NCBI RefSeq assembly: GCF_029962835.1
Contig: NC_080574.1
Coordinates: forward strand, 24,774,001-24,838,000
Origin: Magnolia sinica
Lineage: Eukaryota > Streptophyta > Magnoliopsida > Magnoliales > Magnoliaceae
DNA length: 64,000 nt
Reading direction: 5' to 3'
Shown piece after piece: positions 5,554 to 53,063 of the stretch. Both the position numbers and the translations under genes were made by a program. Numbering within the stretch: the stretch's first letter is position 1; the number at the start of each line of letters is the position of its first letter. The notes below the pieces were generated by a model, which made no database searches, was not told where the DNA came from, and saw nothing but the letters and a program-made list of their open reading frames with translations.

Positions 5554-5940
5554 GAAGTGTGTTGCGTCCGAACTCCGATCAGACAATAAGCCGTCCGACC
5601 AGAGCTTCTCTAGGGCCCACCATGATGTATCTGTTTATCTATGCCGTCCATCCATTTTAACAGATCATTTTAAGGTATGATTCCAAAAATTAATTAAATA
5701 AAACTATCAAATGGACCACACCAAATAGTGAGCGTAGGTTGCATTAAGTGCATAAAGCGTTAAATGCAAGAGTTATCTATGGTGTGGTCTATTTTATTTT
5801 GTATCTTCTAATTTTCATACATTCAAAATATCTGAAAAAATGGATGGACGGAATGGATGAACAGATACATCAATATGGGACCCACAGGAGCTATGATCGG
5901 ACGGCTTATTGTCCGACCGGGTTCGGACACAATCCGCTTC
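5554..5940. mobile_element. Family A foldback MITE, compact copy
   Basis: Nearly the whole element is palindromic: arms of about 180 bases around a centre near 5740. The termini share GCGTCCGAAC / GTTCGGACAC and ACAATAAGCCGTCC / GGACGGCTTATTGT. The family words GGGCCCACCATGATGTAT and GGACCACACCA recur in inverted form on the right. Confidence 0.8.
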
Positions 5941-6089
5941 GCTCTTTTGCACGGTTTTATTTTATCGCGAGTGCTGATGCTGACGACATCTAAAGCGGAT
6001 GAAAAATCGACAGATACCTGAAAAGGACCGAATCACCCGTGTAGCTGAGGTATCGAGGAATTACATCATAACACGGAAGAGATCTAATC

Positions 6090-7250
6090 CATACGCGTGG
6101 GAAGTGGATTGGCTGGTGTACCGCACACTACCAACCTTGTTGGTGTGTTGACGTCACCAAGTTATGTGGGTTCCATCTTGAGGTATGTCTTATATCCAAA
6201 CCGTCCTTCCATTTTGTGAGCTCGTCGTGAGGCTTGATCCAGAAAATAAGACAGATCCAAAGATCAAGTGGACCGCACTGCAAAAAGCAGTGGGAGATTA
6301 AATGTCTACCATTGAAACCCTTTCGGGGGTCACAGAAGTTTTGGATCAGTACGATATTTGTTTTTCCTAGTCATTCAGGTCTTTATGACATCATGAGCAG
6401 ATTAAATGAAAAATAAACATTATGTGGCCCTGTGAATGTTTTAATGGTGAGAGTCATCGTCTCCACTGCTATTTGTGGTGTGGTTCACTTGAGATTTGCA
6501 TATGCATTTTCTATCTCATGATCTAAAATGATCTCGTCAAATGGATGAACGGTGTGGATATAGTAAATAGATTATTTTGGGGCCCATGTAACTTTGATCT
6601 CTCTGAACCGTTCGAATAACTAGGAGATCAAGCAGCTCGTTTGACGCTCCTGGAGCTCCTGTACAAACGGTTCAAAGGATATCAAAGAGAAAATTACCAC
6701 TGTAGACTCCACCTTTAATCTAGCGTCTTTTATGAAGAATTCAAAACTTACCTTTTCAACTTAGACCTTACACGTACGGGCAGAGCATTTGAAGAGGAAA
6801 ATATCCCTGCTTACGGCTCCAGTGGCTACGGTTATAATTCGTAGCCATAGGTCTAAGGAATCGACGTAACACTTTCCAAGGCAGAGATATTTTCGTCCTC
6901 AAATGCTCTGTCCGTACGTACAAGGTCTAAGTTGGGAAGATAAGTTTCGTATTCTCCAAAAAAAAAAGAAAAAAACGCTGGATAAAAGGTGGGTTCTACG
7001 GTGGTAATTTTTACTTTCAGACTCATTTGGGCCCCACTTTCAATGGTAGACGTTTAATCCCCCAATGCTTTTTTCAGTGGTCCAGTTGATCTTTAGATCT
7101 GTCTTATTTTCGGCTCAAACCTTACAATGAGCTCACCGAATGGATGAACAGTTTGGATATAACGCATACCTCATTATGGGACCCACAGAACTTGCTGACG
7201 TCAGCCACCTAGATAGCTGGTGTACACCAGCCAATCCACTTCCATACGCG
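6090..7250. mobile_element. Composite nest of family A foldback elements
   Basis: Outer arms at about 6090-6345 and 7015-7250 are inverted copies (AAGTGGATTGGCTGGTGTAC on the left and its inverse on the right; ATAAGACAGATC words inside). Between them are another family A right arm (about 6420-6600) and the separate palindrome at 6689-7013. Non-coding. Confidence 0.7.
6689..7013. mobile_element. Nested palindromic element (family C)
   Basis: Left arm AAATTACCACTGTAGA..., then CTTAGACCTTACACGTACGG and AGAGCATTTGA. The right arm is the inverse (CCGTACGTACAAGGTCTAAG and GGTGGTAATTTTTA). The centre holds a small hairpin, TGGCTACGG ... CGTAGCCA. The A-run near 6959-6975 widens one arm. No open frame. 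Confidence 0.75.
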
Positions 7251-7850
7251 TGTGGACACGTGGCATAACTTCTCGGATCCATGTTGGCCCACTGTACATG
7301 GGTCAGACCCCAAAATCACTCCAAAATAAAGGGTCGGAGTTAATCTAGTTCACTTGGACGGTTAAAATGTATAGTGCCATCCATCCAAATTTAAGATAAT
7401 GTCCATTCATGAGAACTAGGATCGTCCAATCAGTCTGATATTGGGGTGATTCTCCACAGTTTAGACGGTTTGGATTGAGGTGCATGTCACTGAAATTACT
7501 CCATCCTATATTGGCCAAACCCAAGAATCTCACAAATCGGACAAACCTAACCATTAGCTTGAAAATTTTAGCTTCCATGGCTCACATCATTGCACATAAA
7601 AGCATTGTTCTCCATCTATAGTATGACTCACCGGATCCATGTTCTTGATTACCGAACCATGGCCCCAACTTGTTAGAAACGGAAGGCTTGTAAGCTTTGG
7701 ATCTACTTCAATTTGAGGCCCATGCCCTAAAATGAGTTGGAAAAAATGAATGAAAGGCTGGGAAAAAACACATAAATCATCGTGGGGCCCATAAAGCTTT
7801 GACACCAGCTACCTGGTTGGGTCACCAGCCACACTGCGCCCCATGTTAAC
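7251..7850. other. Fragments of family B- and family A-like MITEs
   Basis: 7340-7500 resembles the interior of family B (AATCAGTCTGATATTGGGG, TTAGACGGTTTGGATTGAG). 7690-7830 is a family A right arm (GCCCATGCCCTAAAATGAG, CATCGTGGGGCCCA). No gene. Confidence 0.5.
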
Positions 7851-7889
7851 CGCGACGGGGTTAGGTATTAGCCCGTCTGTCCCGAGCTG

Positions 7890-8630
7890 GAAATAGGCTA
7901 GGCCCACCGTGATTTATTTGTTAATCATGACCGTCTATTCATTTTTTATTTTTTTTTATCATTTTATGATAAAAACCAAAAAAAAATAAAAAAGAAAAGA
8001 AAAGAAAAAACATCAGCTCGATCCAAAACTTGTGCAGCTCTTAAGAAGTTTTTGAAAGCAGGAGTTTAGTTTACACTGTGTGGTCCCCTTGAAACTTGAA
8101 TTTACCTCATTTTTTAGCAGTCATCTAAATCTCCCAGAGTCAAAGTAGTGGCACTTGTTTGTTAAAGTGGGGTCAGCGTAGGTGGTGGGAACCCTGTGGG
8201 GGCCACTGTAATAATGTATGTGACTGCATCCACGCCGTCCATCCATATTAAAAGCTCATTTTAAAGCATGATCTAAAAATTGAAGCAGATCCAAATACGA
8301 AATGGGCCATAGTACAGGAAACAATAGTAATTGACCATTAAAAACTTCTTGTCAGCCACGTAAGGTTTGTATCATGATGATATTTATGTGACCTCTTCAT
8401 CTAGGTGTTTGCAACCTTATCACTGAGGTGGAATCCAGGAAGTTTTTAATGGTAGGGATTTAATCATGACTATTTCATGTGGTGTGGTTCTCCTAATATT
8501 TGGGTCAGCTCATTTTAAGGCATGATCCCAAAAATGAAACTGTTAAAATAGTTGGACGGTGTAGATTTAAGTCAAATACAGCATTGTGAGCCCCACAGTT
8601 ACGGGTCCTTCCACCTATGCGGATTCGCGG
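7890..8630. mobile_element. Family A foldback MITEs: a partial copy and a complete copy
   Basis: 7890-8150 is a partial copy interrupted by an A-rich stretch. 8165-8630 is a full copy: left arm with GGGGGCCACTGTAATAATGT and GCCGTCCATCC, right arm with TGGTGTGGTTC and TTGGACGGTGTAGAT, ending at GAGCCCCACAG. Confidence 0.65.
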
Positions 8631-8969
8631 ATCCACCGAAGCCACGCCCGTTGAAAGTAGAGCCAATGGTGCCTTTTTTTTTTTCTTATTTTTGTTTCAA
8701 TACGTCTACTTGCGTGTACATGTGTGTCTCAACAACATGTACGGAGGGTTCGCTGGATTTCAGGGAGCAACTGATGAACAATCCAAAGGTGAAACATGGT
8801 GTGACATGTGTGACTCGCAGTTGCTACCGACCCAATTCCGTGATGGTTTGAATTGGAAAAGCTCCGTGGACCCACCATGCTGTATGCATTTTATCCTACC
8901 CGACCATCCATTTTGCTGGCTCATTTTCAGGCATAAGCTCAACAATGAGGCATATTCAAGTCTTAGTGG

Positions 8970-9573
8970 TAAGAGTGCACACAGGTTGGGTCAGTCCGGC
9001 TCTGGAAAGAAAATAGAATCGAACTGTTTCTAACAATTTTAGGATATTCGGAACCGGAACCGGAACCGGACATTAGCGCCCTAGAACTGAACCGGAACTG
9101 GACTATTAAAACTGGTTCGGTTCCACAGTTATAGGCTTTTTATAATCCTATTTTATAATCTAGCCTATTTCCATTCGTATTGTGATCCATTTGATGAATG
9201 GTTTGGATATTGTATAAGGTGTGCAAAAATACATTTATGGAAACAATCCAATAGTGCATTGTAAACCATAAATCATGAGTCAAATATGGAAACAATCAAA
9301 GAGTTCCTGGTTTGATTCCAAGTTCAGTTTTAGGTTCGGTTCCACGGTTCAGTTCCGTGGTTCAGATCCACAGATGGGTTCTACAGGTCGGATCACTGTT
9401 CTGTTCGGTTCTACATATCTCAAAACCGAGAACCGAACTGATATAATCAGTTCTTTGATATTTGGAACCGGAACTGAAACCGAAACCAGTGCATTCTAGA
9501 ATCAGACCAAACTAGACTGTTTGATCAGTTCCGATCTAGTTCCATGGTTCTACCGGTTCGATGTGCACCCTTA
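8970..9573. mobile_element. hAT-like MITE with GGTTC/GGAAC subterminal words
   Basis: Terminal inverted repeats TAAGAGTGCACA (left) and TGTGCACCCTTA (right). Just inside are many copies of short words such as CGGAACCGGAAC on the left and GGTTCGGTTC / GGTTCTACCGGTTC on the right. The flanking 8-mers cttagtgg and cacggtgg match at 5 of 8 positions, which fits an old target duplication. Non-coding. Confidence 0.6.
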
Positions 9574-9691
9574 CACGGTGGGACTGCACCACAAGAAACA
9601 ATGGTGATTGAATGCCCATAGTTAAAAACTTGCTAACCCTTTCTATGATGTTTCTTTGGCATCCAACTTGTTAATTAAGTCACATAGACCT

Positions 9692-9816
9692 AGAAATACC
9701 TCGTTTCAACACTTGAGGTCTTGGTATAGATCCCTAGCAGGGGTGGCTAACGTGGAGTGTGTGTACTGACATGGGTATGTACTAACAAGCTAACCCCAAA
9801 AAAAAAAAAAAAAAAA
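9692..9816 (+). mobile_element. 5'-truncated tRNA-derived SINE
   Basis: The body contains TTGAGGTCTTGGTATAGATC (degenerate B box) and GGGTGGCTAACGTGGAGTGT, and ends in an A-run of about 20 bases. It is flanked by a 12-base duplication, tcacatagacct and tcgcacagacct (10 of 12 match), in the loop of the surrounding family A element. Relatives are at 18371, 40854 and 48086. Confidence 0.75.
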
Positions 9817-10050
9817 TCGCACAGACCTGGATGAAAGGAAAACACAAATATAAGCTTAATTCAAAACATTTGCAGCGCTAGAAGTTCTTAATGGTGGCAT
9901 TCTATGATCACTGTTTCTTATGGTGTGGTCCACTTGAAATTTGGATCTACCTCATTTTTGGACTCATGCTTTAAAATAAACTGTAAAATTTTATGGACAA
10001 AATAAATAAAACATATACATCATGGCAGGGTCCGCAAAGCTTTTCCAACA

Positions 10051-11884
10051 GAAAGTGCCTACTATAGGGGTCGCTTACGAATTCAAATCCGAATCCGAAT
10101 CTGAGTCTAGTTGACAAATGTAACACTCATACTACGGAAAAAGGTAGGCTCAATAGATAATTGTGAGCAAAATAGAGCATATCCGTCCATCAGGTGGAGA
10201 TCAATCATTTTGAACCACTTATCATAAAGGGAACACTAAATGGACAGTCCGGATTGTAACGTGTACCTCCTATGTTGTGTTTTTTAGAATTAAAATAAAT
10301 TTTTAAAATAAAAGTTATTTTTAGAAAGTAAATAAATATATTAATTATTTAAACTTTCCATAAATAGTGTGTATAGCCGGTCAGTAAGAGAAGAGGTTTT
10401 TTGCTTATGTAACCATAGTTCAAATCTCCTCAAAGGTTGTAGGGCTGCTTAAGCGCACTTAGCACACAAGGAGCTAAGAGAAACTTAGTCTTTTTGGCAC
10501 TCAGTTCAAACTTTTTGGGTCATGGCACCCTAATGTTTTATTACTTTTTTTGTTGATTGAGAGTAATTATGACATGATTATACATGTGGCACCTATGTCA
10601 TGTGTCGCTTATATTGATACAGTTTTTCCTATTGGATAACTGCTTCTATCTGAATGGGTACAAAAACAACTATCATAGTACAAAGAATCATGTCGTTTCA
10701 TGGAAGACAATTAGTTGTTGTGAATGGGTATGGATTTTTTGAAGAAGCACTTTAGCACCGCTTCAGAAAAAAATACATAACCTTTCAATTGATATAAATC
10801 TTGGATACTATAATGTAGAAGAAGATACTCTTAATCCTTAAGATTATATCATCTTCTTTGCGATTACTATTGATTTGATCTCTTGCTGAGTTTTTTCTGA
10901 ATGTCTTCAGGCATATCAGTGTCAAAACTAAAGATCTATTCAACACTTAAATGTACAAATTTTCGTGTTAAAAATCTGATTGAGAGTTCATTATATCCTG
11001 AATACAATTTGCAGATTTCCTTCGTTTGCATTTGCTAGAACTTCCAAAAAAAAGACAGCAAATTTATCTTGAGAAATTGACTATTCAAGTTAAGCCTTGA
11101 ACCTGATAAATCTAATCATTTCGTTATCATTTTCTTCTAATCCGCCGTTGTGTACAAGAAACACTTATATATCTAACATCCAGTTTTTCATTCAAATCAA
11201 TGGTGGGAAAGGAAAACAGTTAATGGTCAACATCAAATTGCTGGAAAGTAAAGATGTCTCGTTATGCATATGATCTTGAAAACATTCCTCATCCATAACG
11301 AGGCCCACTAGCTGGACAGCTCAGAATGATGAATTACCCTTTGCACGTGTTATGTAATGGGATAGCTCTACCGTATTATCTCCTCCTGAAGATTCATGGG
11401 ACGCACATAAAATCTGGCCTCTGGACTTACAGATCACCTGACTATGGTTGGAAAATGGAACCCACTTAACTATTTCAGAAACCAGAACATCTCTACCTGT
11501 ATCCATCTTCACACCTTCAAAAATGTGCAACGGTTTTTTTATTTCCCTTCTTGGTAAAGGCTAGATGTGGATTTTTCTCATACTGCATGTTGAGAATTCA
11601 ACGGTTGGATGGTCATGTAACTTGTAATCAACGAGTCCTATTGTATTTGATGCGGTGCAACAAATGACCTCTAGAGAGCTTTCTCTATGTATCATATATG
11701 TTTCCACACACGGCAAATTCTTCAAAATTATCTAATCCTGTGATGTGTCACATGGAGTAATGCCACATGGTGTGGTTTGATTATGAGCAATTAGTGTGTA
11801 GAGTATGATATAGGTGGAGAAAGGAGGGAAGAGAGAGGGACCTGATGGAAAAGGTGTGGTAAGAGATGGAGAGAGAGGAAATGG
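10051..11884. other. No gene recognised; one coding-like frame at 11321-11530 (minus)
   Basis: Mostly low-complexity intergenic DNA. The minus-strand frame at 11321-11530 (69 residues, containing the stretch VSEIVKWVPFSNHSQVIC) has a protein-like composition, but it matches no family I know and has no neighbouring exon I can place. It may be a gene relic or chance. Confidence 0.3.
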
Positions 11885-13801: not shown

Positions 13802-14314
13802 GGAAGCGGATTGCGTACTGAGTAAACTCTGTGGAATTTACCATGATCTATGTATTTTATCCACTCCGTCCATCTATTTTATTAGATACTTTTATAACAC
13901 GGTTCCAAAATTTAAGGATATCCAAATCTCAAATGCACCACACCACATGAAACAGTGTGAATTGAACTTATACCGTTGCATAATTCTTGATGTCACAGAA
14001 TTTTTATATTAATCTTATATTTGTTTTTTTCCCTTCATCCATGTCTTTGTGATATTATTAACAGCTTGGATGACAAATAGACATCACTGTAGGGCCTAGG
14101 AAGGTTTCAACGGTGGAAATCATTATTCCCACTGTTTCCTGTGGTATGATCCACTTGAGAGTTGGATATGCTTCAACTTTGGGCTCAACGCCTTAAATGA
14201 GCTGAAAAAACGTATGGACGGTGTGGATAAACCACTTATTTTCACGGTGGGCCCAACAGAGTTTACTCAGTACGATAAGAGCGTACTGAGTAACTCAGTA
14301 CGCAATCCGATTCC
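13802..14314. mobile_element. Family A foldback MITE with 9-bp target duplication
   Basis: The termini are inverted: GGAAGCGGATTGCGTACTGA on the left, and CAGTACGCAATCCGATTCC on the right. The flanking 9-mers ctgtcctta (13793-13801) and ctatcctta (14315-14323) match at 8 of 9. The right end carries an extra duplicated GTACTGAGT block. A 9-bp duplication with long inverted arms is typical of Mutator-like elements (established); membership here is inferred. Confidence 0.8.
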
Positions 14315-14500
14315 CTATCCTTATGGCTCTCTTGAAGGTAACTTATGAAAGCAAAAAAACTAAAAATAAATAATTAAAGTAATTAGGTACTTTTGAGTAA
14401 AATATAACTTATAACTAATCATAAAACAAACTTACTTACCTGAAATAAGTCACTTACCTACTATTGTAAGTAAAAGAAATAACTTATTTAGTGGTATTCG

Positions 14501-15766
14501 AGCCCATTTGGATACTACCAAATAAGTTACTTTTCAACTGATATAAAGTAATTAAGTTATTTTTTTCACTTAGGTTAGTTTTGTAAGTATTATTATAAAA
14601 GTAATTTATTAGTTAAAAGCTACTTATCTTAATAAGTTTTTTTTTTAACTTTTTTACTTTTTTCACTCTCATGGTACATGTCTAAGGAAGGTCACTCTCA
14701 CAATCCATATCCAAGATGGGCCTCCATGATAGATGACCTCATGTATAAATATGGCTCAAATGGATGGTCCACATCAAAGGTCGGCTCATAATGATAAAAG
14801 GCCGACATCTAAAGCGAGCTGATATGATAGACAACCCACTTTAAAGGTGAGGCCTACATGGTAGATGATCCATATCAAAGGTGGGGTCCGCATAATGGGC
14901 ATTGGACATTAAAGTTGGGCCCCACATGATGGATGACCCATATTGAGGTGGCCCCACATGATGGACGATCCATATCAAAGATCAACCCCTAATAATGAAT
15001 GACCCATATCCAAGGCAAGCTCTGAAGGATGGGCGACCCATATAAAAGGTGGGGCACATATGATGAATAGTCCACATCAAAGTTGGGCTCCACATAATGG
15101 GCAATTAATAATGGTATGCCTCACATGATGAATGGTTCACTTCAATGTGAGCTCCACATGATGGATGGTCCACATCAAAGGCCCACACTAATTATGAGTA
15201 GCCCATATTGAAGGCAAGTTCCGCATGATGGATGGCCGACATCAGAGGTGGGGCCACCTCAATATGGATCATCAATCATGTGGGGCCCAACATCAATGTC
15301 CATTGCCCATTATGTGGAGCTCGCCTTTATGTAAACCATCTATCATGCAAGCCCCACCTTCGAAGTAGGTCGTCCATTATGCATGCCCACTTTGGATATG
15401 GGTTATTTCTCAGTATGGGCTTACCTTTAATATGGACCATCCATTACATGGGCCCGCATTGATATGGGTTCATCCAACATGTGGGACCCACTTTTGATGT
15501 GGATCATCTATCATGTTAGCCACACCTTTGATGGGGAGGGTCCGATATGTGGGGCCATGTTTGATATTGACCAAGAGAGCTCTTTTAACATGGATACAAA
15601 GAAAGGAAAGTGAAAAAATAATAACTACAAAAGCTAAAACTAAAAAACTTATTGAAATAAGTAACTTTTGGCACATAAGTTACTTTTACAATAATGTATA
15701 CTAAACTAACTTAAGTGCAAAAAAAGAGTAAATAAGTTAAAACCTAACTTATTTGGTGGTATGCCC
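14501..15766. mobile_element. TIR element with arms of about 170 bp enclosing an inverted minisatellite
   Basis: Left end ATACTACCAAATAAGTTAC; right end AACTTATTTGGTGGTATGCC, inverted. The arms are AT-rich and complementary for about 170 bases. Between them, 14690-15250 is a degenerate repeat of about 35 bp with the core CATGATGGATGGTCCACATC. 15250-15590 carries the same unit inverted (core GATGTGGATCATCTATCATG). The element as a whole could fold into one long hairpin. No transposase frame. Confidence 0.75.
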
Positions 15767-16212: not shown

Positions 16213-16811
16213 GGGGGTGTTTGGAGCATGGTATTGGGAAGGATTAGGTGGGATGAGATTAGAAAAACCTAATTATTATGTATGGCAGCAATTGTCCCCT
16301 GTCACTATGGGATAAGCTAAGCTTAACTCCATGCTATGTTTGTAATACAGTGGTACATTGAATGGATATACTCAGTATCATTTCAAACTATTGAGAATAA
16401 CACATGTTATATCTAAATAGTTCATCTGTTTTGTAACCTCATTTTATGGCATGAGCCTAAAAACGAGGCAGATCCAAAACTTATGTAGTCCCAAAGAAGT
16501 TTTCAACGGTAGGTATTCAATGCCCACTGCTTTCTATGGTGGGGTCCACTTGAGCTTTAGATCTATCTGACTTTTTGGCCCATGCTCTAAAATGATTTCA
16601 AAAAATGGGTGGACAGTGTAGATATAGCCCACACATTATGGTGGGACCTATACAACTTGTTAACATTGAGTGGAATTGGCACAAGACCAATGCAATTCCA
16701 TCTAATCTAATTCCAAGCTTTTTCATTTTTCACGATGAGAGGAATCGGCACTTGGCCAAATGCAATTCCATCCCACCTAATCCCATCTAATACAATGGGC
16801 CAAACGCCTCC
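16213..16811. mobile_element. PIF/Harbinger-like MITE (TTA target site)
   Basis: Left terminus GGGGGTGTTTGGAGCATGG, right terminus GGGCCAAACGCCTCC, with GGGATTAGGTGGGAT words inside both arms. TTA is present on both flanks (16210-16212 and 16812-16814). A 3-bp TTA duplication is typical of PIF/Harbinger and Tourist-like elements. Part of a family A element (about 16385-16665) lies inside. A related fragment is at 24950-25125. Confidence 0.75.
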
Positions 16812-16814
16812 TTA

Positions 16815-17177
16815 GGGCTTGTTTGCCCGGGCAGATCCCTTGATATTAGGTGGGATGAGATCAATTTTAAGGCAATGATGGTGGTATCAAGGGATTGTCT
16901 TAAGATCCATGGGATTGCTTATATTCGTTACAAGTTCATTGGGTCCGTTTGGCCCGCCGTGCATATCTCAAGATTTTACTTTCCAATCCATCCAACCAAG
17001 GGATAGGATCAATTTTAAGGTAATGATGGTGACGTCAGTGGATTGTCTTAGGATCCATGGGATTGCTCATTTCCCGAGACAAGTTCACCGGATCTGTTTG
17101 GCTGGTCCTGCCTATCCCAGAATATTGCCGATCCCATCCCTCCTAATACCGTGGGATCTGCCTGGCCAAACAGGCCC
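16815..17177. mobile_element. PIF/Harbinger-like MITE, abutting its neighbour across one shared TTA
   Basis: Termini GGGCTTGTTTGCCCGGGCAG and CTGCCTGGCCAAACAGGCCC are inverted. TTA flanks at 16812-16814 and 17178-17180. Internally it is a partial direct duplication: GATCCATGGGATTGCT occurs twice. The close relative in PP2C intron 1 is 31320-31680. Confidence 0.8.
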
Positions 17178-17739
17178 TTAGGTTATGAGCTATCTACGGC
17201 GGCTTCCATGAGTTAGACGGTTCAATTTGAGTTACATATATGCACGTGAACAAATGCAAGCGCCTGCATATTATCCATCATACTCTGCCAGAGTATCAAT
17301 TAACTCCACAAAAGTCAGGGTTGTTGAGGCTTGAGAGTTTGGGCCTACAACTATTTATAGCTGTAGTATCTGATCACGTTGATTTGTCCTTTCATTTTCA
17401 ACCAAGTGGGAGGTTTTGAGTTTGGACGGTTGGATCCGGAAGGGATGTTTACGTTCGACGGCTAAAATGCGGGAGGTGGTTTGGTGAATCCAAACCGTCC
17501 ATGTAGTGAAACATTACCATTGACGGTGGTTTCCTACCACAAACAATAGTATGGATTACATTATCCATATGAACAGAAGCCTTTAAATGGAGGGTCAACG
17601 TGAAAATGGATTCAACCGAAGAAATTCATCAGTTCGATGTGATTTTCAACCTAGCGCCACTCACTTTACCACTAGAGGCAGAGATCGGATCCAGGACGCG
17701 GATTTCCCGCGAAAGCATTCCGCAGGAAAGTATGCTGGG

Positions 17740-17990
17740 TGGGGCGCACCGCCATGTTTGTGGGAAATCTACACCGTTCATTCGTTTTTTGAGATCAATT
17801 TAAGCTAAGAGAAAAAAAAAAGGAGGTGATACAAAACTCAAGTAGGCCACACGAGAGGGAAATTTGGGGAAAGAAATGCCTACCGTTGAAACCTTTCTGG
17901 GCTCCACCTTGATGTTTATGTACCATCCAAACCGATCCACCTCCGTCACTTGTATGTGTCCCTTCCTGATCCAGTAGATCATAGTGGGCC
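17740..17990. mobile_element. Family A fragment
   Basis: Contains the left-arm words CTACACCGTTCATTCG and TACCGTTGAAACCTTTCTGG plus part of the loop (CACCTTGATGTTTATGTACC). The right arm is absent. The region 17308-17739 before it holds no recognisable gene. Confidence 0.5.
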
Positions 17991-18690: not shown

Positions 18691-19259
18691 TTAGTCTGCG
18701 TGAGTTAAAGCACTTTAAGTGTTTCGAACAACCTAACACGTGGTGGTCATCTGTCTCTCTCTCTGGCATGACATCTACGTTAATAGTTAGGTGGGGCCCA
18801 ACGTAAATAATGCCCTGACCCATAGCTCATGTTAGTCCTCTCATCTTGTGGAACTCGGATTGCGTCCTACCCCGCCGTCTCCGGCTGGGAACGGGCAGGA
18901 GCTTTGAGTGGCCACCGTGATGCACTGGTCTTATCCACACCGTCCACCCATTCTTCCGTGTCGTTTCATGATATAACATCAAAATTTAGGCATATCCAAG
19001 GCTCAGGTGGATCACACCACAGGAAGCAGTAGTGATAATGGTTCTAACCGTTGAACACTTTTTTAGCACCCACCGTGATGTTTATTTTCCATTTAACCTG
19101 TTCATAAAGTTACATAGACTTGATGAAGAGAAAACTCAAATATCAGCTTCATCCAAAACTTATGTGGCCTTTAGAAAATATCAACAGTAGGAATTTAATC
19201 TCTATTGTGTATTCCACATCTGTCTTGGATCTGCCTCAACTTTCAGCTTATATCCTAAA

Positions 19260-20632: not shown

Positions 20633-20761
20633 CGTTGCTTAATGCTCTTTGCTAGGATTGGCAAGATACCGGTTGACAACACCAACCGCATATGTTATGT
20701 CTAGGCATGTACACACCATAACATACATTAAACTTCCTACTGCTGACGTGTAGGGTATCTT

Positions 20762-24086: not shown

Positions 24087-24089
24087 CTT

Positions 24090-38719: not shown

Positions 38720-39498
38720 TTCGGTTGCGGATTGAGTAGTCTAAACCTATGTCGGCATTGTCTGTTACTGGAAAAGATCCATGGGCCTCAACATGATGTG
38801 ATTATCCACATTGTCTATGTATTTTTCAGGATAATTTTATGATATGAGCGCAAAAAAGCATATCTAAATCTTTGGTGGACCGACAAGAAACAGTAGTGAT
38901 TCAACACCCACCATTAGAAATGTTTATTTGTCATTTAGTATATTAATTAAGTTATGAATGGAGGGAAAATGCAAATATCAACTTCATCCAAAACTTTCAT
39001 AACTCAAGAAGTTTTGAATGGTGGGCATCTAATGGCTAATACTTCCTATGGTGTGGCCTCTGATATTTTAATCCGACTCACTTTCAGAATAGTGAATCGC
39101 ATACTTAAATTTAATGTGGACCATTGTGATGTGTGTGTCTTATCCACACCCTCTACTCATTTTATCACCTCATTTTATAGCGTGAAATATCGTAAATTAG
39201 ACTTCTACCATTGAAAATTTCCCTACAGGTAAAAGATGTTCTGGAGGAAGTTTTCAGTCATATAAGTCTAATTTGTATGGCAAATAAATATCATGGTTTT
39301 AATGGTGAATGTTGTTATTTTTCTTTTTCTTTTTTGTTTTTGGTGTGGTCTACTTGTGCTTTTTATATGCTTCAATTTTGGATTCCACTGATCATAAATT
39401 GAGCTGGTAAAAGAGATGAATGGCGTGCATAAGACAACCCACGGAATTTATTTGATACACTATAAAATACTGAGTTACTTAGTATGCAATTCGCTTCT
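38720..39498. mobile_element. Composite family A foldback element
   Basis: Outer termini near GGTTGCGGATTGAGTAGTC and TTAGTATGCAATTCGCTTC. The length (about 780 bases) and extra internal arms (about 39110-39240) suggest one family A copy inside another. A right-arm fragment follows at 39500-39640. Confidence 0.6.
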
Positions 39499-39893
39499 TA
39501 ATTTTGGATTTGTGCCCTAACTTAAATTCAGAGGTAAAATGGATGGACAACATAGATAAAACGCATACATCATTGTGGCTTTGTGGAGATTTTCTAGCAG
39601 CACATTGTACTGATGTCAGTGTTCCATGCTACATTAGGCAAATCCCCGATCCTTCTTTTCCTTAGATATTCGATTGGCTCCCCTGGCCAACCCCCTGTCT
39701 AATATGTTGGTTTGATCTTCGAAAATAGATTTCCAACCCAGTCATCTTAGCCATCCAAGTTCAAATATGAACTTTGAACAGTGTGTTTCTTCACCGGACA
39801 ATTTGCAGGGAGCTTTGAGCCACATGCATCTACAGACATGCCAGCACATGCGCCATCATGTCACATAGGTACAAGTTCCAAGCCATCAAATGC

Positions 39894-40795
39894 AGGGAGC
39901 AGATTCGGTGAGGCCCAAAAAACAATGGTCTAATTGAATGCCCACTGTCAAAAACTTCGTATGGACTACAAAAGTTAGAGGTAGATTTTGTAGACAACAC
40001 CCTCAGCAGTGGTGTGTGATGCTTTGGGTGTTGTGGGGATCACCATGACATGTACGTTTTATATTCATACTATGTATCTGTTTTCCAAGCTCATTTTAGG
40101 GAATGAAGTCAAAAATTAACTAGATTTGAAGTTCAAGTGGACCACACTACTGAAAACCATGGTGATTGAATGCCCACTATAAAACAAAATATTTGAATTT
40201 AGTAGATATTTGTATTTTCAGTTCATCTAGGTTTGTCTGAACTTATTAATAGGTTGGATGGAAAATAAACATTATGACAAGCCCTTGGAAGGTTTCAAAG
40301 ATGGGCGTCATTGTCCCCACTTTTTGTGTGGTGTGGTCCACCTGAGCTTTGGTTCTGGTTCATTTTTGGATTCGTATCTTAAATTGAGCGGGTAAAATAG
40401 ATGGACACCGTGGATATAAAATACATACATTAGGGTATGCCCCAAAGCACCCAATACATCATGCACACTGTTGAGGTGGGGCAACACCACCTAATCCATG
40501 TCCACAAAAGTTTCCTTTGAAGTGGATATTTGTGTTTTGCCTTTATCGAGGTAGGTCCGTGTGAACTTATGAACAGGTTCGATGGGAAATAAGTATTATG
40601 GTGGGCCTACAAAGTCAAATGATGAGTGTTCAATCGCCATGGTTTACTGTAGTGAGTTCACCTTAATTAGATTTGTATCAACTTCATATTTTGGCTCATG
40701 CCCTAAAATATACTGGCAACACGAATCTACAGCATGGTGGGCCATGGTCACAATCTCACAGAAGTTGTGTTTCCCAGCCTCACTGAATCCGCCCT
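39894..40795. mobile_element. Family A foldback MITE with perfect 9-bp target duplication, carrying a second copy
   Basis: Termini AGGGAGCAGATTCGGTGAGG and CCTCACTGAATCCGCCCT are inverted. Both flanks carry atcaaatgc (39885-39893 and 40796-40804). A second complete family A element lies inside at about 40000-40482; without it the outer element is about 0.42 kb. Confidence 0.85.
40000..40482. mobile_element. Inner family A foldback MITE
   Basis: Termini GCTTTGGGTGTTGTGGGG and CCCCAAAGCACCCAATAC are inverted, with GTGGTGTGTGATG / CATCATGCACAC outside them. It sits inside the left part of the outer element. Confidence 0.7.
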
Positions 40796-45039: not shown

Positions 45040-45495
45040 CACCGCCCTTCTCTAGGCCCACTATAATTTATGTGTAACATCCATACCGCCTATCAATTTT
45101 TCTATATCATTCTAGAGCATGATCCCATAAAATAAGCACACCCAACGCTTAAGTCAGCCATATCACATAAAGTTGTGGGAATGGAATGGCTAACGTTAAA
45201 ACCTTTTTGAAGTCCACATTGGAGCTTATTTGTCATCTAAACTCTTTATAAGGTCACACAAACATGTATTAAGGAAAAATACAAAAATCAGCTTGATTAG
45301 ATCCTCACCTGGCCTCAAGAAGTTTTCAATGATAGGCACCCAATTCTCACGGTTTCTTGTAGTGTGCCCACTTAAGTCTTAGATCTACGTTATTTTTTGT
45401 GTTAATTTCTAAAGTGATATGAAAAAAATGGATTAACGGTGTGGATAAAATATATACATCACGGTAGGCCCCACAAAGCTCCTTTATAGGACCGT
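45040..45495. mobile_element. Family A foldback MITE
   Basis: Left arm from TAGGCCCACTATAATTTATG, right arm ending CATCACGGTAGGCCCCAC. Confidence 0.7.
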
Positions 45496-45524
45496 CTGTC
45501 TCTGGCTCGATTAGGGTGGAAACG

Positions 45525-46085
45525 GAGTGGCTAGTGTACCTGACGTAGGTACGTATCGTGCGAATACAAAGCTGCCGTACCAACAATTCAAAAGGATATT
45601 AAAGTTTCATGGCCCCAAAATGATGTATGTATCATATCCACACCATTCTGAGATCATTTTAGAGAATGGTACCAAAAATTATTCATATCCAAATCTTAAA
45701 TGGACCATACCAGAAATAGCAGTGGGATGATAATTCTCACCGTTAAAACATTCATAGGGCCCACCATAGTGTTTATTTTCCATCCAATCTATTCATAAGG
45801 TCACAAAGACCTGGATGAAGAGGAAAAACAAATATCATATTAATCCAAAACTTCTGTGACCCTGGAAAGGGTTTCAATGGTAGACGATCAATCCCCCACA
45901 ACTTTTTACAGTATGGTCCACTTGATCATTGGATATGTCTTAGTTTTCAGTTCAAGTTTAGGATGAGGTCTCCAAATGGAAGAACGGTTGGGATATAACA
46001 CATACCTTATGATGGGAGCACGTCAACCCACCATCTCGATTGGCTATGTGTGGTACACCAGGCCTCCGGCTGGTGGGCGCAGCAC
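45525..46085. mobile_element. Family A foldback MITE
   Basis: Outer termini CTAGTGTACCTGACGTAGG and CTATGTGTGGTACACCAGG. Inner arms have the usual CACACCATTC / GAACGGTTGGGATAT words. Its sub-terminal GTGTAC words recall the 6090 sub-family. Confidence 0.65.
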
Positions 46086-46104
46086 GCAATTCCTATCTGG
46101 GGAG

Positions 46105-46450
46105 CAGATTAGGTGAGACCCTTGATCCACCGAGGTGGGTGGGATACCTGACTGTGGGGCCCACTGTGATGTTATGACTACATCCACACCCTTCATCGGT
46201 ATTGAAAGCTCATTTCAGGGCATTGTAATAAAAAAAATTTATGCGAATCTAAATATCAAGTAGACCATAACATAGAAAACGGTGATGATTATCCATTAAT
46301 GGGCCATGAAAGTTCTGTGCCATATGAGATTTGGATCATCTTCATTTTTGGGATAATTCCTTAAAATGATATGGAAAAATGAATGAATGGCATGAATAAA
46401 ACACATACATTAAAAATTTATCATGGGCTACAAAAGCTTAGGATTAACAT
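46105..46450. mobile_element. Family A element, partly degraded
   Basis: Left terminus GGGAGCAGATTAGGTGAG, like the 39894 copy. Left arm and a shortened right arm (CATATGAGATTTGGATCATC) are present, but the right terminus is unclear. 46451-47029 holds no gene. Confidence 0.5.
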
Positions 46451-47029
46451 GATATTTATGTGGTCTCTTCATCAGGGTCTTTTTCACCATATCAACGGGT
46501 TAGATAGCAAATAAACATTCCAGAATCTATGAAAATTTTAATGTAGAAATTCAATTACAATTATTTTATATGGGTAAATATGTCAAATGATAATATTTCA
46601 AATATTCTCAACATTGCTCTAGATTCACTGCTACTTTTCCAACTTTAGATTCAAACTTCGAACTTTAAATTTAACCCATAGTCACTCTTGTAGAACCCTT
46701 TGAATTCCTAAAAAAATCAAAATAACGTAAAGACCAGACCCCAACACTATATATGAGAGAGTGCCTAACTCGTTCATTTTCGGCCACTGGGGCCCTTACG
46801 TAGAGTCTTCGCCAATAGACTAATTGTAGGAGTCATTTGAGTCGAAAGATCTTTTGTTCTTTCATTCCTTAAGAGATTATACAATTTCTATTTGACCATA
46901 AATTTTAATATTTCATATTGGTTAATGATGACTCTAAGTTAATTGCATTATCATATTTGAGTCAATAGTGCACCCCAATAGCATCCAACATCAAGAAGAA
47001 AACTAAGAGCGTGTAACACTTGCTCGCGG

Positions 47030-47440
47030 GGTAGCATTTATAGTCCACTCCATCCATCCATTTACACCAAATATGTAAGACATGAGGTAAAACATGAAGC
47101 AAATCCACAGCTCAAATGGGTCACACCACAAGAAACAATAAGGACAAAGACGACCACCGTAAAAGCCTTCTTAGCACCCACTGTGATTTTTATATGCCAC
47201 CCAACCCATTCAAAAGGTGACTCCAATGGGGATGAGGGGAAAACATAAATATCAACTTGAGCTTAAAATTTTGTGGCCTCCAAGAAATTTCAGAGGTGGA
47301 TGTTCAATCCCTACTATTTCTTATAGTGGGATCAACTTAATATTTGGATTTAATTCATGCTTGAGCTTATGTCTTAAAATGACATGATGAAATGGATGGA
47401 CATAGTAGATAAAACACAAATCATGGTGGGCCCACCAACC
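47030..47440. mobile_element. Family A foldback MITE
   Basis: Left arm GTAGCATTTATAGTCCACTC, right arm GTAGATAAAACACAAATCAT then GGTGGGCCCACC. Confidence 0.68.
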
Positions 47441-47489
47441 CTCAGCTGCAAGGATTCAGAGACCCCTCCAGATCTCAGCATTGGTTGGT

Positions 47490-47935
47490 GATGGAAAAGC
47501 TTTGTGGGCCCTACCATGATGTATGTTTTCCATCCATGTTGTCCATCCATTTTTTCCGGCTCATTTTAGGGCATGAGCCAAAAAATGAGGTAGATCTAAA
47601 TCTCGGGTGGATCACACAACATGAAATAGTGGTGATTGAACACCCACAATTAAAAAGTTCTTAGGGCCACTATAATGTTTATTTGCCATCCAACATGTTG
47701 ATTAGGTCACCTAGATGAAGGAAAAACACAAATATCAGCTTGATCCAAAACTTTTATGGCCCCCAAATAGCTTTTAATGGTGGGTGTTCAATCACCACAA
47801 TTTCCTATGGTGTTGTTCACTTGAGATTTGATTCTATCTCATTTTTGGGACAATGCCCTAAAATGAGGTGGCAAAAATGAATGGATGGCATTGTTAAAAC
47901 ACATACATCATTGTGGGGAGGCATCATTGACGTCG
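47490..47935. mobile_element. Family A foldback MITE, reference copy
   Basis: I compared the arms base by base. The left arm (GTGGGCCCTACCATGATGTA ... AAGTTCTTAGGGCC) and the inverted right arm (CCCCACAATGATGTATGTG ... AAGCTATTTGGGGGCC) align over about 170 bases, around a loop of about 130 bases. Confidence 0.85.
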
Positions 47936-47936
47936 G

Positions 47937-48015
47937 TACTAGAGGGTCACTATCGAATCCTAGTCCTGTAGGCAGGTTACTAGAGGGTCACTTTCGAATC
48001 CTAGTCCTGTAGGCA
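47937..48015. repeat. 41-bp tandem duplication
   Basis: Two copies of a unit starting TACTAGAGGGTCACT, sharing TCGAATCCTAGTCCTGTAGG, with one clear substitution. Confidence 0.85.
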
Positions 48016-48085
48016 ATTCATGCCCCGACCGGGTTAGGTGCTGCCCCACCTCACCCAAGCCAGTGCAACCCTCATCGTGAAGCTC

Positions 48086-48153
48086 TTTTTTTTTTTCTTA
48101 GGTTGTTAGTACACCCCACTGTCAGTTGACACTTCACTGTTAGCCACCCCCTT
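48086..48153 (-). mobile_element. Very short 5'-truncated SINE with target duplication
   Basis: The minus strand reads GGGGGTGGCTAACAGTGAAG..., then an A-rich tail (a T-run on the plus strand). Perfect 12-base flanks atcgtgaagctc at 48074-48085 and 48154-48165. Confidence 0.78.
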
Positions 48154-48164
48154 ATCGTGAAGCT

Positions 48165-48570
48165 CACACTGATGTATGTGTTATATATCCATATGATCTT
48201 TTCCAAGTCATTTTAGGATACAAGCCTAAAAAATGAAACATATCCAAATCTCAAGTGGACCATACAATAGGAAACAATGATGATTGAATGCCTCACCATT
48301 AAAAACTTCATAAGGCCCACCATAATGTTTACTTGCCATGCAGTCAGCTGATAAGGTCATATAAACCTGGATGAAGAGAAAAAACAAATATCATCTTGAT
48401 CCAAAACATTCGTGGCCCACAATAAGTTTTTAATGGTCAATCACTCTCCTAAGGTATGGTCCACCTGAGATTTGGATTTGTTTCATTTTTTGGCTATTGC
48501 CCTAAAATGATCTAGAAAAACTGATGGGCAACTTGGATATTGAATACATCCATCAAGGTGGGCCCATGGT
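48165..48570. mobile_element. Family A foldback MITE
   Basis: Left arm CACACTGATGTATGTG, right arm ACATCCATCAAGGTGGGCCC. The SINE at 48086 sits at its left edge. Confidence 0.7.
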
Positions 48571-48599
48571 AAGGGCCGCACCTAATATGCTCCTATGCA

Positions 48600-49040
48600 C
48601 CTGGCCTCACCAAAGATGGCATGGCTCTTGTGTGGGGCCCACCTTGATGTATGTATTCTATATCTACACCATCCATCTATTTTTTAGAAATCATTTTAGG
48701 ACATGAGCCCAAAAATGAAGCAAATATGAATCTCAAGTGAACAATATTATAGGAAACAATGGTGATTGAACGACTCACCATTAAAAACTTCCTAGGGTCC
48801 ACCTGAGTGTTTATTTGGCATCCAACATATTGAAAAGGTCACATAAACCTGGATGAAGGGAAAAAACAAATATTAGCTTGATCTAAAACTTATTATCAAA
48901 ACTTTTGTGACATATGATAATAAGTTTTTAATGGTCAATCACCATTGTCTCATACAATATGATACACTTGAGATTTGGATGGACAACATGGATGTTGAAT
49001 ACATATATCAAGGTGGGCCCCAAGGCCACACCATCTTGGG
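48600..49040. mobile_element. Family A foldback MITE
   Basis: Left terminus GTGTGGGGCCCACCTTGATG, right terminus TATCAAGGTGGGCCCCAAGG. Contains a small internal duplication near 48885-48925 (AAAACTT...TGTGACATATGATAATAAG). Confidence 0.72.
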
Positions 49041-49059
49041 TGAGTCTGGGTTGCACGGC

Positions 49060-50240
49060 CTCAGTGCGACCCTTACTGCAGGGCCCACCTTGATGTATGT
49101 ATTTGATATCCACTTTGTCCATCCGTTTTGACAAATTATTTTAGGGCATAATCCAAAAAAATGAAATAGATCCAAAACTAAGGCAGACCATACTATTAGA
49201 AACATTGGTGAACAAATGGCCTACGTTTAAAAATTTCCTATGACCCATCGTAATGTTTCGGTAATGTTTATTTGCCATCCAACTGGTTGATGAGGTCACA
49301 CTAATCCAGATGATGGGAAAAAACAAATATCAGCTTGATTTAAAACTTTTGTGGCCTACAGGAAGTTTTTTACGGTCAATCACCACTATTTCCTATACAA
49401 GGTATTCCGTATGTGTAATAGCCGTAGTAATGGTCACTATTATTATTGATATGGGTGTAATGGCCGTTATAAGTCCTATAATAGTTGAAATTTTTTCTTG
49501 CTTGAAAAATTCTGATTTTTTTTATTTTATTGTTTTACAGATTTTAGATTGATTTAAATATTTCAAATATGTATTTATTTATTGTTTTGAACAAGTTGAT
49601 GCCAGTGTAACGGGCTACTCTTTTTTTAGAGTGTTGTATCAGGTTGTCTGGCAATTTTATGAACATATATAGTTATATGTCTCTAATATTTACACATCAT
49701 AATCAAACATTAACACTAGAAATAAAAAACCGTATAAAATGCTACTTTTTTAATTTTTAAAAACAATGCCCCTTGGAGCTTCCATTCACTTAAATCGCTT
49801 CAATATACTGTTTTAATATTAAAAACTATAGTAAGATTGTCAAAATATGCTGTAAAATAATATAAAAAAAATTATAGAATGAGAAAATTGAAAAAATGAA
49901 GAGAAAAATGGATTTAAATAGAAATAAATGACATTTTTTTCCGGTCTTTACAGTATTGACAGTTGTGATGCCCCATAATAACCGCATAATGATCAATACA
50001 GTCCCAAAAAACTAACTGCCCCATTGAATCCCATACCGCATAACAGTAATGACCGTTACCTATGTGTATTGACTTCTATGGCCATTTCATAATAAACACA
50101 AAACACCTTATTTTTATATCATAATGTAGCTTAGATTTGGATATGTTTATTTTTAGTCTCATGCCCTTAAATAATATAGAAAAGCAGATGAACGACATGG
50201 ACGTAGCATACACGCATCAATGCGAGCCTAACGGTAACGG
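49060..50240. mobile_element. Family A foldback MITE interrupted by an insertion of about 0.7 kb
   Basis: Left arm from CAGGGCCCACCTTGATGTAT, loop to about 49403; the remaining right arm is at about 50112-50240 (AGATTTGGATATGTTTATTT, ACGACATGGACGTAGC). The insertion (about 49404-50108) starts and ends with GTAATGGTCA / TAATGACCGTTAC-like words. It is unclassified. Confidence 0.6.
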
Positions 50241-50339
50241 TCTGATGGTCTTGGGTGAGGTCCAGCCACACCTAATCGGCTCCCGTTCGAAAAATGGGAT
50301 AATGTGGGCATTGTATGGCACAAAGATATACTTATGCCG

Positions 50340-50765
50340 AAGCTATGTGGGGACACAAAGATGTTCTTGACAAATCTCCTCCGTCCATCTATTTTTAAAG
50401 GCTACAATAATATAGGAAACTAAAAATTAGGCATATCCAAAACTGACGTGGGACACACCACATAAAATAGCGGGGATTGAATGATTGGGGGTGATAGAAG
50501 TTTTGATCAGGATGATATTTGTTCCTATAGTTTATCTTATTGGTAATAACCATATGAACGATCTGGATGGAATATACACATAACGGTCAGTTCCAGGAAG
50601 GTTTCAACGGTGGATGTTTCCGTTCCCATTGTTTCATTTGTGGTGGCCCACATGAGCTTTGAATTTGCCTGATTTAAAAAAATTTAACCTATTGTGAGAT
50701 TTAAAAACAGATGGATGAAGTGGATTTATCATGTGCATCTATGTGGGCCCACATAGCCCTGGGGA
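50340..50765. mobile_element. Family A foldback MITE
   Basis: Left arm CAAATCTCCTCCGTCCATC; right arm GATGGATGAAGTGGATTTATC, ending ATGTGGGCCCACATAG. Confidence 0.65.
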
Positions 50766-51020
50766 CATGGATTTCGAAAGTTCTTGCGTTGGGATTGTAG
50801 ATGGGTCCCAACGTGATGTTTCTGATAAATCCACACCATCTATCCATTTTGGGAGGTTATTTTAGAACATGTGACCAAAAATGAGGTGTATCCAAAAGCC
50901 AAGTGGGCCGTATGAGATGAAACAATGTAGATTCAGTGACCACCGTTTGAAACATTCTTATGGCCACAAAGTTTTATATCAGGTGAAGTTTCTGGTGATT
51001 TCACTACATCCGAGTGGGAA

Positions 51021-51610
51021 TAGGGGTGTACATCAGGCTGAACCGAGTTGAACTGGGCTCAACCCAGTTCGCCCCGGTCACCAGCCAAACCAGCCCGAAC
51101 TTGGCCCGGCCCGGTCACCGAGCCAACACATCCAGCCTAAATCCAGCCTGGTAAGCAATCGGGCGAGTTCGGGCCGAGTTCGGGCTAGTTTTGGACCCAC
51201 GATTTGGACGGCCTTGATTTTTTGACTCTGCTCCATCTACTCCATAGGAAGAGCTTTGGCAGGTAACTTGAACGACCTTGATTTTTGGGAAGGGCTTTTG
51301 TCATAGATTTTTTGGACTTTGCTCCATCTATAAAGGGACCCACGATTTGGACGGCCTGGATTGTTGTAAATGGTTAGGGTAACTGGGTAAGAATTTAGGA
51401 AAAAGTATAATATATATAGGCAAAGTCGGGCCAAGTCGAGTTGGGTTTTGGGCCGAACTGGAACCTATCCAAACTCGACTTGAACTCAGTTTCAGGCTGA
51501 AGAAAATGGCCCGTCCCGACCTGAACTTAGCTCCAGGTCAGGCCGAGTCAAACTTTTTCGGGCCGAGTCGAGTGAGTTAATGGGGCTAGCCCGGTTCGTG
51601 TACAACCCTA
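51021..51610. mobile_element. hAT-like MITE with 8-bp target duplication and visible empty sites
   Basis: Termini TAGGGGTGTACA and TGTACAACCCTA are inverted. Flanks agtgggaa at 51013-51020 and 51611-51618. The neighbouring tandem units read CGAGTGGGAATGACC at the same place without the insert. Subterminal regions are dense in CCGAGTCGGGC / GGGCCGAGTTCGGGC words. The 8-bp duplication is typical of hAT elements. Confidence 0.88.
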
Positions 51611-51830
51611 AGTGGGAATGACCTTATAAAAGGTTTGGATGACATATAAATATCAAGGTAGATCCTAGGAAAGTTTCAACAGTAAGAAACTCTTTCCCCA
51701 GTTTCCCCTCTCGTCCGGTCCACTTGAGTCTTAGATCCACCTAATTATTGGTCTCATATTCGAGCTCCCACAACGGATGGACAGTGTGGATTTCTCAAAA
51801 ACATTATTGGGGGCCCCCACCTAACATCCT

Positions 51831-51877
51831 AGCGCAGGAACTTACTGCAAAAGGCTTTCGCAGGAAGTTCCTGCGCT
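51831..51877. repeat. Palindromic junction between tandem units
   Basis: AGCGCAGGAACTT and AAGTTCCTGCGCT are perfect 13-base inverted repeats, 21 bases apart (ACTGCAAAAGGCTTTCGCAGG). A copy with a mutated right arm is at 52325-52371. Confidence 0.9.
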
Positions 51878-53063
51878 GGGATGCTAGATGGGTCCCAACG
51901 GGATATTTGTGATAAATCCACAACGTCCATCCGTTTTGGGAGGTTATTTTAGAACATGCGACCAAAAATGAGGTGTATCCAAAAGCCAAGTGGGCCGTAT
52001 GAGAGGAAACAATGTAGATTCAGTGACCACCGTTTGAAACATTCCTATGGCCACAAAGTTTGATATCTGGTGAAGTTTCTGGTGATTTCATTACATCCGA
52101 GTGGGAATGACCTTATAAAAGGTTTGGATAACATATAAATATCAAGGTAGATCCCAAGAAAGTTTCAACGGTAGGAAACTCTTTCCCCAAATTCCCCTCT
52201 TGTTCGGTCCACTTGAGTCTTAGATCTACCTAATTATTGGTCTCATATTTTAAAATGAGCTCCCACAACGGATGGAGGGTATGAATTTCTCAAAAACATC
52301 ATTGTGGTCCCCACCTAACATCCCAGCGCAGGAACTTACTGCAAAAGGCTTTCGCAGGAAGTTCTTGTGTTGGAATGCTAGATGGGTCCCAACGTGATGT
52401 TTATGATAAATCCACACCATCCATCTATTTTGGAAGGTTATTTTAGAACATGCAATAAAAAATGAGGTGTATCCAAAAGCCAAGTGGGCTGTACGAGAGG
52501 AAATAGTGTAGATTCAATGACCATCATTTGAAACATTCCTATGTCCACAAAGTTTGATATCCGGTAAAGTTTATGGTGATTTCACTACATCCGAGTGGGA
52601 ATGACCTTATAAAAGGTTTGGATGACATATAAATATCAAGGTAGATTCCAGGAAAGTTTCAACGGTAGGAAACTCTTTCCCCAGTTTCCTCTCTCGTTCA
52701 GTCCACTTGAGTCTTAGATCCACCTAATTATTGGTCTCATATTCTAAAATGAGCTCCCATGATGGATGGACAGTGTGGATTTTTCAAAACCATCATTTTG
52801 GCCCCACCTAACATCCAGTGCAGAAACTTACTGCAAAAGGCTTTTGCTGGGATGCTATATGCGTCTCAACGTGATGCCCACATCGTCCATCCATTTTGGG
52901 AGGTTATTTTAGAACATGCTACCAAAAATGAGGTGTATCCAAAAGCTAAGTGAGCTGTGTGAGAGTAAGCATTGTAGATACAGTGACCACCGTTTGAAAC
53001 ATTCCCATGTCCACTAAGTTTGATATCAGGAATAGTATACATGTGAAATCCACCCTAGGTGAT

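Follow-up and report, generated by a model that had tools for sequence, protein, structure and literature searches.

How can a family of short repeats keep the same outermost bases and the same body while the sequence between the two differs from one subfamily to the next? The question is raised by a 64,000-bp stretch of the Magnolia sinica genome (G000:C2:24774001-24838000), hereafter the window, which we analysed together with the whole genome (1.84 Gb, 127 contigs) and with loci drawn from that genome for comparison (labelled L001 to L094). The repeats are foldback miniature inverted-repeat transposable elements (MITEs) of the Mutator-like element (MULE) type, as a sequence-only reading of the window had proposed, and this assignment is backed by in-register target site duplications (TSDs) of 9 bp, by the length of the inverted arms and by the high number of copies. 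A variable module lies between a shared tip and a shared inner arm, and the pattern suggests several replacements of this module, which may be what a mobilising enzyme recognises. We regard it as an evenly balanced proposition that these are foldback MULE-MITEs in which a subterminal module was replaced repeatedly and at both ends.

Extent of the family and its target site duplications

We built a profile (family A) from 27 genome copies of the element found at 18850, whose consensus is 528 bp long, and searched the window with nhmmer, yielding 91 matches, with most loci matched on both strands. After merging, the matches formed 32 loci covering 12,444 of 64,000 bp (19.4%); the reversed window, used as a control, gave 0 matches, and the inverted arms were also detected by two further searches of the window. 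The family had been said to fill much of the window: it is a real dispersed repeat family, with a share of about one fifth. In 30 loci centred on MULEs, a non-random sample, the same profile covered only 711 of 98,541 bp, so that the window may be enriched for the family.

Searches for genome copies returned 4,066-10,471 first-look candidates per query, of which 40 places were scored. On this basis, full-length copies of the 13802 family occur at 85-97% identity, copies of the 18850 family are 81-85% identical to the window copy, the 5554 family has end-to-end copies at 72-79% (best match per place), and the 39894 family has copies at 69-78% in the inner part only. Family copies occur on many contigs, at 72-97% identity, and we infer that the superfamily is both old and recently active. 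We then classed 36 elements by their modules, 33 from tip pairs with a TSD of at least 7/9 and three window elements added by hand (17 belong to subfamily B and nine have an A left end). Their sizes are 471-551 bp for 31 (18850 without its insert), 387 bp for one and 902-1,173 bp for four; the first estimate of 0.4-0.5 kb fails for 39894-40795 (902 bp) and 6100-7243 (1,144 bp). As expected of MITEs, the elements are short and non-coding, with terminal inverted repeats (TIRs), TSDs and a high copy number. Their non-coding status was judged by size and by the list of open reading frames (ORFs) in the window; the sole overlapping frame that was scanned (8590-9033) had no Pfam match, and Rfam gave nothing at gathering scores.

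The three TSDs first reported hold once the far ends are placed: 13802-14314 (CTGTCCTTA/CTATCCTTA, 8/9), 18850-24939 (9/9, despite the long terminal repeat (LTR) retrotransposon that splits the element) and 39894-40795 (9/9). A scan of the whole window for TIRs with 9-bp TSDs, run without a shuffled control and also catching TA repeats, yielded 14 candidates, including a new fourth TSD at 6100-7243 (9/9), the sole candidate with a 20/20 TIR. Tips are present at 5554-5941 without a TSD (4/9). We next compared the flanks of tip pairs in the genome. In L001-L028, a TSD of at least 8/9 was found in register in 11 of 21 tip pairs (one TSD being common to L003 and L004), against 0-1 at each of 24 shifted registers. 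For L001-L088 and the window together the count was 29 of 92 against 0-2 at each of 12 shifts, where the 92 pairs are every tip combination up to 2.5 kb apart, many of them non-partners, and some loci overlap. All nine bases were identical in 15 of 33 listed elements. For the 13802 family, both tips were found in 25 of 30 loci and a TSD of at least 8/9 in 18 of the 25, with the boundary picked to favour a TSD and one element counted twice. The flanking 9-mers of these genome copies, which the sequence-only reading had advised tabulating, show duplications in register, and the lack of duplications that would speak against the assignment was not seen. Among 30 distinct TSDs there was no strong motif by eye (AT fraction 0.57), and none was a TA repeat of the kind targeted by MuTAnT, a foldback MULE-MITE family of Medicago truncatula.

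MULEs are marked by TSDs of 9-11 bp and TIRs of 100-500 bp (Ferguson and Jiang 2012; PMC3310237). The TSDs described above fall in this range, and so do the TIRs, with subfamily G and 39894 as exceptions. In the A consensus, no difference separates the arms over roughly the first 110 bp and few do up to 160 bp, after which likeness drops to 0.52; in B, C, D and E elements, likeness between ends is mostly 0.6-0.96 across 160-210 bp, and likeness between G ends declines past about 135 bp. Most of each element consists of arm sequence that can fold back on itself, as judged from self-complementary alignments and from the whole-element folding of two elements (z -11.8 and -20.3). The suggestion that the arms would give double-stranded RNA holds only as the predicted folding potential of these two elements.

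Tips, modules and arms

The outermost bases, about 11 bp, are common across subfamilies and read GGRNGCGGATT. This pattern has 49,071 exact copies in the genome against 1,405 for the reversed pattern (about 35-fold), and GGANGCGGATTGCGT has 7,975 against 3 (more than 2,000-fold). Most exact tips clearly run on into something other than GCGT, the ratio of the two counts being a rough one because a single base sets these patterns apart. None of the 11 module representatives departs from the tip pattern by more than one base; they were sought with a tip-like motif, making their agreement partly selected, and the genome count therefore serves as independent evidence. The outermost 20-40 bases had been described as differing between subfamilies; the variable part in fact lies just inside an outermost 11 bp or so that is mostly shared. 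Likewise, GGAACTCGGATT at 18850 was taken to mark a subfamily, a view we abandoned since the opposite end of the same element reads GGACGTGGATTGCGTCC and the family consensus GGACGCGGATTGCGTCC.

Directly inside the tip is a module of 37-56 bp that varies in sequence and defines the subfamily (A to J), and from near GGGCCCACCATGATGTATG the inner arm is shared again. We compared modules and 105-bp arms in 54 between-subfamily pairs, using consensus sequences for A, B-right, C and D and single copies, some chosen by eye, for B-left, E, F, G, H, I and J. Alignment z-scores replaced an earlier identity measure that proved too blunt (modules 0.28-0.59 with a shuffled mean of 0.50, arms 0.35-0.74 with a shuffled mean of 0.55). 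Arms exceeded z=3 in 54 of 54 pairs (z from 5.7 to 18.6, with a median of 11.0), and modules did so in 6 of 54 (median 0.8), with additional module pairs at nominal p<0.05. The length difference favours the arms; short modules can still be aligned, the two ends of B sharing their module at z 13.3 over 46-49 bp.

The same module class was found at both ends of 31 of the 36 classed elements, mostly A and B. In three others one end was unclassed (L015, L022 and 18850), and the remaining two (L016:585-1666 and L035:226-1398) are nested insertions. Between the two ends of B elements, the module is 0.84-0.96 alike, positions 61-135 are 0.60-0.76 alike and positions 136-185 are 0.80-0.84 alike; one C copy resembles B in having a module more alike between ends than the arm. 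The sequence-only reading had spoken of an exchange of termini, which survives as a pattern once shifted inward, from the outermost bases to the subterminal module, with the tip and the inner arm staying.

Modules also tend in part to form small hairpins. They fold better than dinucleotide shuffles (summed z -5.5 over 10 subfamilies, -3.7 without B), whereas equal lengths of arm, taken as a control, gave a summed z of +3.3, and a stem-length test on the modules gave a combined p of 4e-5.

A side observation concerns contig G000:C1, where pairs of GGANGCGGATTGCGT tips are evenly spaced at 412-414 bp (e.g. 219808-220219, 3179484-3179896, 3344326-3344739 and 3536756-3537169), which suggests a shorter, perhaps younger subfamily; L093 contains a 413-bp element.

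Proposed replacement of the module and alternative explanations

A typical element would be laid out as an 11-bp tip (GGRNGCGGATT), a module of 37-56 bp, often with a small palindrome, an inner arm of about 100 bp and a loop, followed by arm, module and tip, with a 9-bp TSD on the flanks. Under replacement, cleavage by a MULE transposase would take place at the common tip, and the element would enter its target with a 9-bp stagger, steps that follow from the MULE assignment. The module would be the recognition site of the transposase, as its position suggests and as does the binding of MURA to a motif of about 32 bp in Mutator TIRs (PMC3310237). In source elements an unrelated module would replace the old one, and the new end would be copied to the opposite arm before the source amplifies, giving each subfamily matched ends and a common body. 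This copying route is proposed on the strength of the matched ends and of a FAR1-type MULE at G000:C3:47317800-47329000 (L090, L091 and L092), which has a 772-amino-acid ORF with FAR1, MULE and SWIM domains and 1.68-kb TIRs that are 97% alike and carry family arms at mirror positions, a placement that needs arm-to-arm copying or inverted duplication. Just inside its own tip this MULE has a palindrome with a perfect 9-bp stem. It was ruled out as the partner of the family because its end reads GAGGAACGCTCAGC and sits in a (TA)n tract. Arm conversion after insertion was ruled out for family A, because in 20 two-armed copies the arms within a copy (0.839) are no closer than same-side arms across copies (0.839 left to left, 0.823 right to right), and any arm copying would thus predate amplification, in the source.

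A more specific version, cassette exchange, seems to us possible but rather doubtful: a fixed cleavage tip and a fixed palindromic body would have their recognition palindrome swapped wholesale at both ends via folded-arm copying, and the body would pass between transposases.

Several results weigh against repeated replacement at both ends. Six module pairs (B-left-D, C-E, D-E, H-I, H-J and I-J) align at z of about 3 or more, and several module representatives rest on single copies, some picked by eye. The hairpin signal is uneven: B and J show it strongly, G, C and E reach nominal significance, A, F and I have a weak signal, and D and H have none. With automatic clustering, the folding z was -2.75 over 14 clusters, mostly from B; this is a weaker test, which kept 118 of 219 tip rows from 353 arm hits and lumped several modules. 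The module is not more alike between ends than the arm in the second C copy, D, E and the 413-bp A', and in G the two are about equal. The ends of 39894-40795 show no end-to-end arm alignment and match poorly past the first 35 bp, and the arm comparison in family A described above gives no closer likeness within copies.

The search for an autonomous element adds to these points. The genome is rich in MULE transposase domains, with 1,104 and 804 first-look candidates. None of the MULE loci inspected contained an autonomous Mutator-like element sharing these tips, which the sequence-only reading had advised looking for. When 30 PF10551 MULE loci of 3.3 kb were searched for the motif, one tip only was found, in L088, and this tip belongs to a neighbour, since it faces away from the MULE. 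Of two wider MULE loci (9 kb and 11.2 kb), one was without a convincing TIR and the other had a different tip in TA repeats; two stretches upstream of mudrA-type domains had tips only at two mismatches. A 4.2-kb tip pair taken as an autonomous candidate turned out to be two separate MITEs, and a tblastn search with 30 MULE ORFs against the window and L001-L058 gave nothing at an E-value of 1e-4. Separately, G000:C5:104.68-105.20 Mb holds 15 listed matches to the mudrA-type DNA-binding domain, all on the + strand and in open frames of 634-843 amino acids; this run may be a family of domesticated genes in tandem.

Plain descent of the subfamilies from several MULEs is a serious rival, since the loci inspected yielded no autonomous relative; we give it an appreciable chance, though one well short of even. 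Each subfamily would derive from a different autonomous MULE by internal deletion, its module having diverged through fast co-evolution of binding site and transposase, with the arm kept for some other reason such as a promoter or structure. This gives matched ends directly and draws on the abundance of MULE transposase domains. Gradual divergence would lead one to expect some module sequence still to be shared, as it is in 6 of 54 pairs, and several subfamilies in which the ends resemble each other no more in the module than in the arm also speak for plain descent. This rival accounts less easily for the 48 of 54 module pairs that do not exceed z=3, given the strong homology of the arms just inside and a tip that hardly varies, and the autonomous elements with these arms from which the subfamilies would descend were absent among the MULEs inspected.

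It is improbable that the palindromic body arose as a separate repeat and was picked up by several MULE families unrelated to one another: this would explain a common body across subfamilies with unrelated modules, but unrelated MULEs should have unrelated tips, and the 11 bp outside the modules are nearly constant. Less probable still is an origin from another cut-and-paste superfamily, a reading left room by the fact that no transposase is directly tied to the elements and opposed by a TSD signal at 9 bp in register alone, by identity at all nine bases in 15 of 33 elements and by the long inverted arms. The hAT superfamily has 8-bp TSDs and short TIRs, and membership in it was ruled out by the same full nine-base matches and long arms. 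Chance or artefact (low-complexity palindromes or assembly repeats) can be dismissed on the controls, for although the whole-window scan also catches TA repeats, the reversed window gave no matches, the tips stand about 35-fold and more than 2,000-fold above reversed patterns, and copies lie on many contigs at 72-97% identity.

Features of the window and related systems

The elements of the window and the retrotransposon that interrupts one of them are listed in Table 1. The copies at about 51619-53020 read as a head-to-tail array of subfamily F units with a shared palindromic junction like AAAGGCTTTCGCAGGAAGTTCCTGCG and without an outer tip.

Table 1. Family elements and the interrupting retrotransposon, in window coordinates
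Feature	Position	Strand	Remarks
Subfamily G foldback element, about 388 bp	5554-5941		Ends GAAGTGTGTTGCGTCCGAAC / CGAAGCGGATTGTGTCCGAAC
Subfamily E element, 1,144 bp	6100-7243		TSD ATACGCGTG 9/9; further palindrome nested at 6684-7017
Arm and loop fragments with gaps	7691-10044		Profile matches
Subfamily B element, 513 bp	13802-14314		TSD 8/9; full-length genome relatives up to 97%
Family fragments	16406-17932		Includes subfamily F left end at 17694 (GGACGCGGATTTCCCGCGAAAGC)
Subfamily A element, left part	18850-19261	+	Interrupted by LTR retrotransposon (about 19262-24879)
Ty1/copia-type LTR retrotransposon	19262-24879	-	LTR match of 19262-20068 with 24092-24879, 82%; RVT_2 at 20762-21733
Subfamily A element (same as 18850), right end	24880-24939	+	Module largely missing; TSD TCATCTTGT 9/9 with 18841-18849
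Foldback element	25229-25721		Right end is subfamily D tip GGACGCGGATTAGCTACTGACAGG
Several family copies	28811-31244		Between PP2C frames 28445-28699 and likely first exon 32441-33343 (-)
Copies and fragments of family	38720-39580		Profile matches
Subfamily H element, 902 bp	39894-40795		TSD ATCAAATGC 9/9; tips AGGGAGCAGATTCGGTGAGG / AGGGCGGATTCAGTGAGG
Foldback copies, dense cluster	45056-49395		Inverted-arm searches and profile
Further family copies	50127-53020		Inverted-arm searches and profile

In four comparison loci (L016:1109-1650, L035, L050 and L058), elements apparently lie within other family members, inserted in their tip or subterminal module, the one in L016 with a TSD (GACGCAATC, 9/9) within an A tip; from these few cases, a preference for the tips or modules of relatives is possible.

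A PP2C gene lies on the - strand at 26688-33343. Three frames, in order, have Pfam PP2C matches, of which two pass the curated cut-off and the third falls slightly short of it (19 vs 20.3 bits), and 32441-33343, without a Pfam match, is likely the first exon. Several foldback copies apparently sit between PP2C exons, so that long hairpins could enter the pre-mRNA. A second retroelement in the window has RNase H and integrase-like frames, the integrase match being just under the cut-off. Two repeats of other kinds were also seen: a complex set of nested inverted repeats at 14348-15762 and a small element at 31319-31681 with arms AGGGCCTGTTTGGCCAGGCGAATCCC. Similar repeats (GTTTGGCACGCCCGGCCAATCCCGGGATT) occur in L094, upstream of a mudrA-type DNA-binding domain (G000:C10:71519253), making L094 a possible autonomous relative.

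Foldback elements known from other genomes include SoFT. The architecture is also found in FARE1 of Arabidopsis, Tnr8 of rice and Foldback4 of Drosophila (PMC4486113, PMC3169594, PMC2955051), and foldback MULEs with TSDs of 9 bp, or 8-9 bp, are already known as MuTAnT, Tm1 and Muta1 (PMC4486113, PMC3169594, PMC5225508). MuTAnT of Medicago truncatula has 218 copies in two subfamilies, (TA)n targets and a Jittery-like autonomous relative, AutoMuTAnT (PMC4486113). Like the Magnolia elements, its members are short foldback MULE-MITEs with long near-identical arms and, outside perfect microsatellites, 9-nt TSDs; some lie in introns (PMC4486113). In contrast, the elements described here have 30 TSDs that are not TA repeats, exact tips in tens of thousands and many modules, and a constant tip with unrelated subterminal modules does not appear in the available portion of the MuTAnT description (PMC4486113). 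The Tm1 Mutator/Foldback family of root-knot nematodes is similar in its foldback-like composite TIRs, mostly 9-bp TSDs, MITE-like members, short terminal motifs and MULE-like transposase, and differs in its 7-bp terminal motifs A1/A2, with no replacement of a subterminal palindrome described in the accessible text (PMC3169594). Plant MULEs with multiple or tandem TIRs can bear extra TIR sequence at both ends, but the second TIR is in tandem rather than a replaced module beneath a constant tip (PMC3310237). Muta1 of Aedes aegypti, an animal element, has tandem 12-bp repeats within one family instead of many modules under a constant tip (PMC5225508). Foldback4 is also modular, and mostly keeps its extremities and varies inside (PMC2955051), whereas in the elements described here variation sits directly inside the tip and the body is kept. 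MITEs have been surveyed over 207 genomes (PMC12550479).

Neither these tips nor subterminal replacement in MULE-MITEs was met in the titles and abstracts of a partial literature search. Relative to that search, foldback MULE-MITEs are known, and unrelated modules set between a tip and a body that both stay constant would appear to be new. The finding bears on the open question of how MITEs outlive their transposase. With exact tips in the tens of thousands and many types of module among them, the idea of replacement is testable in this genome, and if it is true, a body whose recognition site changes under an unchanged tip would directly explain how MITEs survive.

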